Made by a program: the position numbers and the translations under genes
In this document: piece after piece, positions 23,324-27,869 of the stretch
Position numbering within the stretch: the stretch's first letter is position 1
Layout of the letters: the number at the start of each line of letters is the position of its first letter
Origin: Candidatus Poseidoniaceae archaeon
GTDB lineage: Archaea > Thermoplasmatota > Poseidoniia > Poseidoniales > Poseidoniaceae
Direction of reading: 5' to 3'
Assembly (NCBI GenBank): GCA_949372875.1
Contig: CASIAW010000009.1
Span: 1-64,000 of the forward strand
DNA: 64,000 nt
The notes under the pieces: generated by a model
What the model saw: only the letters and a program-made list of their open reading frames with translations
Told to the model about the DNA's origin: nothing
Databases searched by the model: none

Positions 23324-23788
23324 ATGGAAAAAGAAATCGAAGGTATTGTAGAAATTGGTTCTAAACCAATAGTGGAACGTCGAGCAACTGCTACTGGTTT
23401 ACTCAACCTGACTCAACAATCAACTGAAGCAATTCAAAACAAAGCGGTCAAGAAAGGAGATGTGCTTGAAGCTTCTACTATCGCTGCAATTCAAGCAGTC
23501 AAGGAAACGCCTCGTATTGTCCCACACTGCCATCCAATCCCTCTAGAAGGGTGCAAAGTGAATTGGTCCTGGGAGGGAAATTCTCTTCGTTGCACAGTTC
23601 AAGTTTCAGCACACTACAAGACGGGTATTGAGATGGAAGCGCTCACCGGTGTTAGCGCAGGGCTACTTTGTGCTCTTGATATGGTGAAGTCGATGGAAAA
23701 AGATGATCAGGGACAATATCCAAAAACATCGATTTCAGATATTGTCGTGGTCGAGAAGTACAAGGGAAACGAATTCATTGCTGAGTAA
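23324..23788 (+). CDS. moaC: Cyclic pyranopterin monophosphate synthase
   Basis: About 154 residues, normal for MoaC, which with MoaA makes cyclic pyranopterin monophosphate. TPRIVPHCHPIPLEGCKVNW and TGIEMEALTGVSAGLLCALD then MVKSMEKDD are diagnostic; HCHP and the late lysine are active-site residues. AGGAG at 23311 precedes the ATG at 23324. Its last 14 bp overlap the end of the convergent GNAT-aminotransferase gene. Confidence 0.95.
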   Translation: MEKEIEGIVEIGSKPIVERRATATGLLNLTQQSTEAIQNKAVKKGDVLEASTIAAIQAVKETPRIVPHCHPIPLEGCKVNWSWEGNSLRCTVQVSAHYKTGIEMEALTGVSAGLLCALDMVKSMEKDDQGQYPKTSISDIVVVEKYKGNEFIAE

Positions 23789-25478
23789 GGACTTCTTTGA
23801 CGCATTGGATTATTCGTTGATTTTCGTCTCTTGAACGTATAGCAAATCGAACAGCGTTATTTCCAAGTGTGATGCCCATGTTTTGAGCATCTCGGATGAA
23901 CACGCCTTTTTGCTTGCAAGCCTCGATGAAACTGGAAGACGTATGCTGGGAATCCTCGGGGAGGAATGTCAAAAGGAAGTTAGCCACGCCGGGTAAGACA
24001 CTGAAGTTTTGTTGCGTTAGTTGTTGCCCCATCTGCTTTCTTTGTTCATGGATTACTGCATATTGTTCGCTGTAATAATCGGGATTCTTCAACGCAGCAA
24101 CTGCTGCTAATTGGCCGGGTAAACTAACTGCCCACGGCGGAATAAAACGTCGTAAGTCGGAGACTTTTTGACTCGCTGCATAAGCGACTCTTAAACCTGA
24201 TAACGCGTAACATTTACTCATGCTTTTGCAAACGATCAAACTCGGAATCTCGGCAACCAGTGCTTCTAGTGAATGAGCGTCGGGAATATAATCGATGTAT
24301 GTTTCATCAACCCAGATCATTTTGCACCGTGTAGGAGATTCGCTTTCATCTTGGATCCGATGGACAATTTCACCCATTTCTTCTGAATATACACCAGTAG
24401 GGCTGTTTGGATTAACGAAGATGACAGCATCATGTAAGCGAGCTTGGGATACTAAATCATCGCTGTTAATTTCAAAACCATTCTCACGATGGAGTATGAA
24501 ATTCGTCATTTCACACCCGATTACATGTGTGAGGATATGACTGTATTCTCCATACATTGGAGAAAGAACGAGAACTCTTGAATCTGCATTGAGAAGGCGA
24601 GGTAAGAAAGAAAACATGAGTGAGGATGAGCCCGAAGAAACGGCGACGTTGTTTGATTCAATGCCCCGAACTTCCGCTATAGTCTGAATCAATTCTTCAC
24701 ATTGCGTTGGTGGTGATTCTTGGCAGCAACGTTCAAGTTGTTCTCGAAGTATTCCCAGTGCTTCAGGGCATGGTGGGAAAGGGCTGTCCAATACATCAGC
24801 AACAATCAGTGAATCTCGAACTTCAAAATCAAATTTAGATGCGTCCCAAGACTTTCCGCCATGATAACACACATCTCCATCTTCGATGTCGAGAGGGTCA
24901 ACTTTAGAGATTTTTTCAGGATGCATACTGAGGGCTTTCTGTGGATTAAGATGCATAGGGTAATAGTGCGTTTCACCGTAATGAACGCCATATTCTTCAA
25001 AAACAGTCATGCCGATTTTCTTATACAACTCGACAACGTTTGAATGCCCCATCGCAATGATATCAGTTCCTTCAAACTGGAGCACGTATTGAAGGGCATA
25101 AGCCATCAATTTTTCAGAAATCTGTTTGCCTCTAAATTCCGGTGATACGGTTAATGCTCGAACTTCATATGTTGAGGAAAGTCTGTCATCGCATAGTGGG
25201 TATAATGTATTTTGCAAAACTTCTTGCGAAAAATATTGGTTCAACCTGAAAGGCTGATTTTCTGGAGGATTCAAACTGATATAGCCCGCAAGGGTTTTTC
25301 CAACCATGCAGGCGATAAAATTCCGACCAGGGTCCTCTATCTGTCTCTCTGAATTCACTTCATATTGCCGTAATTCACTGGCATAGACATCGTGTCTTAA
25401 ACTGGAAATTTGATTCCAAATGTCGGTTATTTCTGAGTTGTATGGGAGAGGGTAATTGAAAAAAACAAACTCAGTCAT
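23775..25478 (-). CDS. Fused GNAT acyltransferase - class I/II aminotransferase
   Basis: About 567 residues. Residues 1-180 resemble a GNAT acyltransferase of the N-acyl-amino-acid or autoinducer-synthase-like kind: LRHDVYASELRQYEVNS, AGYISLNPP, and the acyl-CoA loop TVSPEFRGKQISEKLMAY. Residues about 210-567 are a PLP aminotransferase like histidinol-phosphate aminotransferase: SSGSSSLMFSFLPRL, NPNSPTGVYS, WVDETYIDY and the PLP lysine in KSMSKCYALSGLRVAY. GAGGAG precedes ATG 25478; another ATG is at 25538. A coupled acyl transfer and transamination on one substrate is inferred only from the fusion. Confidence 0.85.
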   Translation of the reverse strand: MTEFVFFNYPLPYNSEITDIWNQISSLRHDVYASELRQYEVNSERQIEDPGRNFIACMVGKTLAGYISLNPPENQPFRLNQYFSQEVLQNTLYPLCDDRLSSTYEVRALTVSPEFRGKQISEKLMAYALQYVLQFEGTDIIAMGHSNVVELYKKIGMTVFEEYGVHYGETHYYPMHLNPQKALSMHPEKISKVDPLDIEDGDVCYHGGKSWDASKFDFEVRDSLIVADVLDSPFPPCPEALGILREQLERCCQESPPTQCEELIQTIAEVRGIESNNVAVSSGSSSLMFSFLPRLLNADSRVLVLSPMYGEYSHILTHVIGCEMTNFILHRENGFEINSDDLVSQARLHDAVIFVNPNSPTGVYSEEMGEIVHRIQDESESPTRCKMIWVDETYIDYIPDAHSLEALVAEIPSLIVCKSMSKCYALSGLRVAYAASQKVSDLRRFIPPWAVSLPGQLAAVAALKNPDYYSEQYAVIHEQRKQMGQQLTQQNFSVLPGVANFLLTFLPEDSQHTSSSFIEACKQKGVFIRDAQNMGITLGNNAVRFAIRSRDENQRIIQCVKEVLTQQ

Positions 25479-25574
25479 GACGATTACATTCTCCTCTAGC
25501 CCTTCAATGATTCGCCGGTTAATTGTCAAATACTCCATCGCAAAGACATTATTGTATTGCTTGTTGCGAACAAC

Positions 25575-27146
25575 ATGCGAGTCAAGGCACTTTACATGGT
25601 TGTCCTCATGCTAACCTTTTCCTTAGCCGGTTGTTTTGGTTCAAACCCAGTTGAAGAAATGGCCGAAATTGAGCCTGAGATGGATCAACGGGTCTTTGTT
25701 ACCGACAGCAGTGGGATGGCAGTGAATGAAGTCCCGCTTGTCATGGACTTTGTATTCAGTGATGTTGGTGAAACAGGCAAAGAACCGAGCATTGGAATCA
25801 CTTCGAGTGGTTGTATGTTTTTCATTGCCATGGAAAAACCGATGCGTTCATGCGATTATGGAGAAAGTTGGGAAAATACTGCCGACATCACTCAAGCTCC
25901 ATTCACCAGCGACCCGTATGGATGGGTCGACCCAGTAACAGACCGAATTTTCAACATCCACATGATGGGACTTGCGACCACTTGGATTGGTTGGTCTGAT
26001 GACGATGGAGAGTCTTGGCTTGGTAATCCATATGACAGCGGCCCAATACCTCTTAACGACCACATTAAATTGGGTTCTGGGCCTTGGACTGATTCAGGTT
26101 ATGGTGGATTAGGACAACTCAGTCCGCTTTACTCTGAAGCAGTGTATTTCTGTTACAATAAATTGGCTGGAATCTTCTGCTATACCAGCTACGATGGTGG
26201 AGCTACTTTCCCAACTGGAGGCCAAATATACGGACTCGCAACAAGTGATGGAGGCCTGCATGGAGCCATTACTACTGCTCCCGATGGAACGGTCTATGTG
26301 ACTCCAAGAGTTGCAATACCTGCAATAATTTACTCGAAGGATAACGGTCTTACTTGGGATACTCGAGAAATGGGACAGGACGCATTAACTCCTAATCCGC
26401 GTAAAAATTCCGAAGTAGCAACCGACAGTGAATCCAACGCATACCACGTATGGACAGGAGGCGATCAAGGGATTTACATGGCTCGAAGTACCGATTCAGG
26501 AGACACTTGGGACTCCGAAAGCATTCGTATCAGTCCAGCAGGTGTCATTTCGACGACATTCCCTCAAACAGATGCTGGCGATCCAGGAAGAATTGCTATA
26601 ACTTACCTTGGAAGTGAAAACGTGTCCTTGCTCAATACAACGGACATTGATGGTAATAACTGGAACGGAAATGGTCATTATGCGCCAAGTGGGGTGCATT
26701 ACCACCTTTACGTCACCTACAGTCTGAATGCACTGGATGAGAACCCAACTTTCCACACCTATCGAGTTTCTGATGACCCTGTTCAAATCGGAAGCATGTG
26801 CTTAAACAGCGGAGATTGCCGTACAGATGACGGGGGTTCGAATCGAAACCTTTTGGATTTCAACGACCTTACCATCGACCTTGATGGCCGAGTTTACATT
26901 GCATTTGCAGACGGATGCATTGATGCATGTGCAACCGGAAATAATTCTCAACCTGAAGATTCCAGAGCAGGAAGAGGGTCGGTCTACTTCATGGCGAACG
27001 GTCCAAGTCTCTATGTCGATAAAGGGGATTTAACATCACCCGTGTCCCCTCCAGCTGAATCACTCAATGCTTCCTCCCTCCCGCAGATTTGTGAAGCTGA
27101 ACAATGTAGGACTGAAGATCAAGAAATCCTCCTCATCGAATCATAG
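25575..27146 (+). CDS. Secreted Asp-box (sialidase/BNR-type) lipoprotein
   Basis: About 523 residues. A type II signal peptide ends in the lipobox LAGC, so the mature protein is probably lipid-anchored outside the cell. Several Asp-box/BNR repeats S-x-D-x-G-x-x-W are visible: CDYGESWENT, SDDDGESWLG, SYDGGATFPT, SKDNGLTWDT and STDSGDTWDS. This indicates a six-bladed propeller of sialidase type; sialidase catalytic residues were not identified. It is divergent from the fusion gene with about 96 bp between their start codons. It may bind or cut polysaccharide. Confidence 0.85.
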   Translation: MRVKALYMVVLMLTFSLAGCFGSNPVEEMAEIEPEMDQRVFVTDSSGMAVNEVPLVMDFVFSDVGETGKEPSIGITSSGCMFFIAMEKPMRSCDYGESWENTADITQAPFTSDPYGWVDPVTDRIFNIHMMGLATTWIGWSDDDGESWLGNPYDSGPIPLNDHIKLGSGPWTDSGYGGLGQLSPLYSEAVYFCYNKLAGIFCYTSYDGGATFPTGGQIYGLATSDGGLHGAITTAPDGTVYVTPRVAIPAIIYSKDNGLTWDTREMGQDALTPNPRKNSEVATDSESNAYHVWTGGDQGIYMARSTDSGDTWDSESIRISPAGVISTTFPQTDAGDPGRIAITYLGSENVSLLNTTDIDGNNWNGNGHYAPSGVHYHLYVTYSLNALDENPTFHTYRVSDDPVQIGSMCLNSGDCRTDDGGSNRNLLDFNDLTIDLDGRVYIAFADGCIDACATGNNSQPEDSRAGRGSVYFMANGPSLYVDKGDLTSPVSPPAESLNASSLPQICEAEQCRTEDQEILLIES

Positions 27147-27197
27147 TTTGAGTTTTTACAAGTCAACGACTAAGAACTCCACTGTAAAGCGGAGTTC

Positions 27198-27869
27198 ATG
27201 TTTAACCGGTTCGACCTTACCAAACCCACTCGCTGGCATCTTGTACTATCGGATAAAGAATTGAACTCTCTTGAACGGGCGATTGGCATCTCTTTTTTCG
27301 CAGGCTTAACTGCGCTGTGTGCACAATTTTCTTTACCAGTGAACTGGACTCCAGTCCCTTATACATTCCAGACATTTGCAGTAATGGCAACCGGAGTGTA
27401 TCTTCGTCGAAACGATGCCTTTCTATCAGGTGGCCTGTATTTGCTTGTCGGGGCATTAGGAGCGCCGGTCTTTGCCGGTGGTGGCGATGCTTTGTTTTCA
27501 GAAAACATGCTCGTTGCAACTGGAGGTTACCTCATCGCTTTCCCTTTTGCATCTGCTCTTGTGGCAGAAGGTCTCGATCGTTCACGAAAAGCGGGTGTTG
27601 CTGACTTCAAGGCCCAAATCATGTGCTGGTCTTTAGCGATGATTCCAGTGTATGTGTTTGGAACTCTCTGGTTAGATTATGCAATTACCTCACCAGGTTA
27701 TGACCTTTCGTGGGCATTTGAGAATGGGACTTTACCATTTTTACTTTGGGACTTTGGTAAAATTGTTTTACTCGCTTTGGTGACGACAAAGGTCTGGTCG
27801 TATGAACCGTTTAATGAACAACCTCCAGAGGAAGTTTCTGAACAGAAGCCGGCGAGCGAAATCGTTTGA
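27198..27869 (+). CDS. bioY: BioY biotin transporter
   Basis: 223 residues with about six hydrophobic segments. VNWTPVPYTFQTFAVMATGV and LVGALGAPVFAGG match BioY, the substrate-binding S component of ECF biotin transporters. No ECF ATPase or T component is nearby; solitary BioY proteins are known. GGAG precedes the ATG. A following GlpX gene overlaps in frame only if its upstream extension is used, so the true start of that gene is set at 27886. Confidence 0.92.
   Translation: MFNRFDLTKPTRWHLVLSDKELNSLERAIGISFFAGLTALCAQFSLPVNWTPVPYTFQTFAVMATGVYLRRNDAFLSGGLYLLVGALGAPVFAGGGDALFSENMLVATGGYLIAFPFASALVAEGLDRSRKAGVADFKAQIMCWSLAMIPVYVFGTLWLDYAITSPGYDLSWAFENGTLPFLLWDFGKIVLLALVTTKVWSYEPFNEQPPEEVSEQKPASEIV

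Follow-up and report, generated by a model that had tools for sequence, protein, structure and literature searches.

A fused GNAT acyltransferase and CobD/HisC-like PLP-dependent enzyme in marine Poseidoniales and on Streptomyces plasmids

The window, a 64,000-nucleotide stretch of DNA from a Candidatus Poseidoniaceae archaeon, encodes a GNAT acyltransferase and a CobD/HisC-like PLP-dependent enzyme in a single polypeptide (Table 1). Both active sites are conserved, and the histidine and cobalamin contexts that might be expected of a HisC or a CobD are absent. The protein is conserved over its full length between marine archaea and Streptomyces, which counts in favor of a bifunctional small-molecule biosynthetic enzyme that would carry out PLP chemistry and then N-acylate the product, a reading that the sequences make modestly probable. 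We infer that the two domains share one molecule as their target, and likewise the order of the two steps and the product.

The open reading frame runs uninterrupted on the minus strand over 23775..25538, and the conserved start is taken to be the ATG at 25478 (MTEF...) because the homologues begin at the same place. This is also the start given by the first-pass annotation, whose two quoted motifs, LRHDVYASELRQYEVNS and KSMSKCYALSGLR, are both found in the translation, and its description of a GNAT domain fused to a PLP enzyme holds: one ORF carries Pfam domains in both halves and its homologues recur. Numbering of GNAT residues begins here at this ATG, whereas that of PLP residues begins at the upstream ATG, position 25538, an offset of 20, so that the PLP lysine K442 becomes K422 when counted from 25478. 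Three Pfam GNAT models score over their cut-offs within residues 23-168 (Acetyltransf_1, 2.2e-7; Acetyltransf_10, 2.1e-7; FeeM, 1.3e-6), which together with the GNAT fold seen in the predicted model and its Foldseek matches places the N-terminal half in the GNAT superfamily, and Aminotran_1_2 covers residues 247-558 (1.2e-30, counted from 25478).

Table 1. Coordinates of the fusion gene, its domains and motifs, and two neighboring genes (window positions unless a locus is named)
Feature	Position	Strand	Length	Basis or remark
Bifunctional gene, GNAT acyltransferase + CobD/HisC-like PLP-dependent enzyme	23775..25478	-	567 aa	ORF, Pfam, full-length family
GNAT acyltransferase domain, residues 1-177	24948..25478	-		Pfam Acetyltransf_1/10, FeeM; AlphaFold model, Foldseek
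Fold-type-I PLP domain, CobD-like, CYHGG motif to C terminus	23778..24869	-		Pfam Aminotran_1_2; NCBIfam CobD top-ranked, under cut-off; CobD PDB matches
PLP Schiff-base lysine codon, in SMSKCYALSGLR	24213..24215	-		Invariant in family; aligns with CobD/HisC lysine
HGG motif, common to CobD	24855..24863	-		Invariant in family and in Thermoplasmatota CobD-like proteins
Asp-box (BNR-like) lipoprotein	25575-27146			Divergent to fusion; core Poseidoniales gene
CdsA-like CTP transferase	L047:13731-14531		267 aa	Translationally coupled to fusion, Streptomyces plasmids

How widely is this architecture held? A search for it in other genomes recovered it in Poseidoniales and on Streptomyces plasmids. 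Full-length homologues are distributed patchily in Poseidoniales (Marine Group II) at 49-78% identity, and the Streptomyces plasmid homologues have 34-35% identity over 90-93% in pairwise comparison. The genome contigs searched contain 24 fusion loci, all with Poseidoniales or Euryarchaeota in their titles and one of them (L044) only a contig-end fragment; that scan used an archaeal query and short patterns that reach close relatives only, and the bacterial side was sampled on plasmids, where eight records, all Streptomyces, span 80% or more of the query. In a phylum sample of 390 genomes the fusion occurs in 20, including one partial copy; matches of fusion length are found only in Poseidoniales, and all others match the PLP half alone. 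Among 60 closer relatives, a complete or fragmented copy occurs in 13 of the 36 same-genus genomes and in 1 of the 24 genomes from a second family of the order. The patchiness is real, since G074, a same-genus genome assembled as a single contig and 96% complete, is without the fusion. Recurrence in 24 loci, 20 of 390 genomes and eight Streptomyces plasmid records means that the architecture is not due to chance, a frameshift or an assembly artifact, and the fusion is a patchily held accessory enzyme, outside core metabolism. No virus-borne copies were confirmed, PADLOC matched the fusion to no defense gene, and a full-text literature search found no paper on a GNAT-PLP fusion architecture. 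GNAT enzymes of SB-203208 biosynthesis take carrier-protein donors (PMC6331615), and the passages on them describe no GNAT-PLP fusion.

An alignment of 36 archaeal and bacterial sequences has approximately 100 invariant positions, spread over both halves. In the PLP half the invariant N378, D411, Y414, S441, K442, R450, R549 and R564 align with the catalytic residues of CobD and HisC, and the invariant positions of the GNAT half include R28, V31, E35, L36, Q38, E105, R107, R116 and Y152. The acyl-donor loop is less regular: compared with the pattern Q/R-x-x-G-x-G/A it reads RGKQIS in the window clade and RGTAVA or RSTAAA in Streptomyces, its arginine is invariant, its glycines are replaced in many members, and R-x-x-G-x-A is retained in L041-L043. 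Its degeneracy in the window clade and Streptomyces counts against our preferred reading, and in the window clade it would fit a GNAT domain that is dead, or that serves as a regulatory or linker element on a CobD/HisC-type enzyme. We consider this highly unlikely, as 24 columns of the GNAT half, among them E105/R107, the loop arginine and Y152, are invariant where archaeal and Streptomyces identity is only 27%, and the domain alone gives a well-formed GNAT model (pLDDT 90.2). The first-pass annotation had named an inactive GNAT part or a mere linker domain as the outcome that would undo its proposal; with catalytic residues kept in both halves, neither half looks like a dead linker. In a tree of PLP domains the family forms one clade (support 100/99) apart from eleven HisC, CobD-like and other aminotransferases, with the Streptomyces copies in one group (100/98) and the archaeal copies in the other (87/97); the outgroup branches are long, and their relative order is therefore unreliable.

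The GNAT half is near the acyl-homoserine-lactone (AHL) synthases and FeeM, and falls outside the LuxI family. The four top Foldseek matches of the domain are to BjaI, a CoA-dependent AHL synthase, with TM-scores of approximately 0.65, and other AHL synthases, PaiA, GCN5 and FeeM follow slightly behind. At such scores the BjaI match points to a kind of acyl acceptor and donor without amounting to an identification, and that AHL synthases are barely ahead of ordinary acetyltransferases counts against the N-acylation reading. The Pfam FeeM model scores 28.7 bits against a cut-off of 27 with the full protein and 32.0 bits with the domain alone, while the Streptomyces copies and L035 fall below; Autoind_synth is absent from the hits of the window protein and reaches at best 19.6 of the 24 bits required, in L035. 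The fusion resembles AHL synthases and FeeM in its GNAT fold and in a similar N-terminal R-x2-V-[YF]-x2-E segment, unlike them in that identity is 13-16% and that those enzymes are without a PLP domain. The earlier guess of an autoinducer-synthase-like GNAT is thus strengthened by the BjaI matches and by FeeM over its cut-off. In the predicted structures the well-modeled GNAT domain appears nearest BjaI and the PLP half nearest CobD; the full-length model is of moderate quality (pLDDT 76.7, pTM 0.58), poor in the linker and at the start of the PLP domain.

Of CobD (threonine-phosphate decarboxylase) and HisC, the former is closer to the PLP half, which nevertheless forms its own clade. On the NCBIfam models CobD scores best and HisC next, each far under its cut-off: 161.7-163.5 bits on TIGR01140, where 290.55 is required and a Streptomyces copy reaches 187.4, and 156.5-157.9 bits on TIGR01141, where the cut-off is 276.55. 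The CobD structures 1lc5, 1lc7 and 1lkc rank first or close to it in both sequence-profile and fold comparisons; CobD is the best PDB match of the PLP half by sequence profile and Foldseek E-value, and with the full model 1lc7 (CobD with substrate) comes first, with CobD and HisC structures nearly equal in score. Shared with CobD are the PLP fold, the HGG motif and PLP lysine, both invariant in the family, the equivalents of N157, D185 and Y188, and both C-terminal arginines. Unlike CobD, the fusion carries a GNAT domain and has Asp251 and Ser275 in all members at positions aligned by hand with Asn32 and Tyr56 of the CobD active site, so that two residues of CobD and HisC are missing; the substrate pocket therefore probably differs from that of CobD. 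HisC has the same fold and PLP residues, and the HisC-like sequences compared do not have the HGG motif at the corresponding place. The first-pass annotation had described an aminotransferase; the PLP lysine and PLP enzyme fold stand, whereas the likeness to histidinol-phosphate aminotransferase gives way to CobD.

Could the fusion nonetheless supply the histidinol-phosphate aminotransferase or the cobalamin CobD that its genome lacks? No sequence there scores higher as HisC or as CobD, although it stays below both cut-offs, and the Streptomyces copies are annotated in databases as histidinol-phosphate transaminase. Against this, histidinol dehydrogenase (HisD) was detected in none of 60 genomes, IGPD (HisB) in none of 31 and CbiB in none of 60, in searches that were positive in 13, 13 and 8 of 14 controls, respectively, and the fusion is distributed patchily within one genus. 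The HisC and cobalamin CobD roles were rejected on the absence of these partner genes, and such an identity is extremely improbable. The absence of HisD (60 genomes, the window genome G000 included) and of IGPD (31 genomes) suggests histidine auxotrophy in the Poseidoniales genomes searched.

The genes around the fusion differ between clades. In the window clade the fusion, the Asp-box lipoprotein and sometimes BioY lie between moaC and glpX in a stretch of approximately 4 kb (window 23789-27801), BioY being confined to some members of this clade. Relatives without the fusion have moaE-moaC and then glpX directly at the same site, which is therefore an occupied site in one case and an empty one in the other. 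Since the fusion-free relatives keep moaE-moaC-glpX and other clades differ in neighbors, a molybdopterin link was rejected. The divergent lipoprotein, proposed by the first-pass annotation to share the promoter, was likewise discarded as a pathway partner, being a core gene present in 54 of 60 relatives, mostly genomes without the fusion and usually at other loci; further paralogues have approximately 35% identity. In other archaeal clades the fusion adjoins riboflavin genes, aconitase and topoisomerase VI, purine and OMP-decarboxylase genes, or a type II DNA methylase. In the clade of L035 and L057 the methyltransferase gene and the beginning of the fusion ORF overlap (L035:4035-5936), and L056 has a related methyltransferase gene; at L041:3089-9227 the fusion is surrounded on its own strand by riboflavin genes, a thioredoxin-reductase-like gene and a ThiF/rhodanese gene. 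The archaeal loci compared have no constant partner gene. Nor does any neighbor there point to a pathway, which counts against our preferred reading.

The Streptomyces loci are more regular. At four of five, a CdsA-like CTP transferase gene overlaps the fusion by 4 bp, starting within its last codons; L048 has no such gene beside the fusion. This coupling would suit a lipid or head-group enzyme, with the product attached to or built into lipid and the CdsA-like enzyme activating lipid in Streptomyces. N-acyl-amino-acid and aminolipid enzymes are found among the proteins of the FeeM, LuxI and Acetyltransf_5 families, and Acetyltransf_5 scores over its cut-off in L035 and L042. The window genome and all fusion-bearing relatives are, however, without a close homologue of the CdsA-like protein, whose matches in 3 of 60 genomes are all in fusion-free ones, and with one of the five Streptomyces loci lacking the gene as well, we regard a lipid role as rather doubtful.

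That both active sites look intact and have stayed together across so wide a phylogenetic distance speaks for a bifunctional enzyme. The PLP domain, of the CobD/HisC branch with its own substrate pocket, would either decarboxylate an amino acid or transaminate an oxo compound, in each case to form an amine. The LuxI/FeeM-like GNAT domain would then acylate that amine, with CoA or a carrier protein as the source of the acyl group, giving an N-acylated amino compound. This order is favored because CobD, the closest relative of one half, makes an amine, and AHL synthases and FeeM, closest to the other, N-acylate amino compounds, and with no histidine pathway in these archaea the product would probably be an acylated amine. 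Both domains might instead be active in one pathway on different intermediates, for example the GNAT on one building block and the PLP domain on another, the fusion ensuring co-expression only. Fusions of non-consecutive pathway enzymes are common, and the linker (residues 192-231) is long and of low confidence in the model, for which reason direct channeling is not evident; on the other hand, the members found retain both domains in one order and none of them is split, and we judge this arrangement somewhat unlikely. FrbH and PntC are natural-product multidomain enzymes in which a CobD-like PLP domain is joined to another enzyme of their pathway, although their partner domain is a nucleotidyltransferase, unlike the GNAT of the fusion.

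For automatic annotation the fusion is a caution, exposing a misleading label of the histidinol-phosphate transaminase type on a gene where no histidine pathway exists. Bolder and unlikely, in our estimate, is that the family, common to abundant marine archaea and Streptomyces, couples a CobD-like PLP reaction to a subsequent autoinducer-synthase-like acylation in one polypeptide, yielding an N-acylated amine that might be a signal or an aminolipid. Acyl-amine signals and aminolipids have been studied mainly in bacteria. If true, uncultured archaea that are very abundant in the surface ocean would have a route needing a single gene, shared with cultivable Streptomyces, and this would offer a testable handle on archaeal small molecules.
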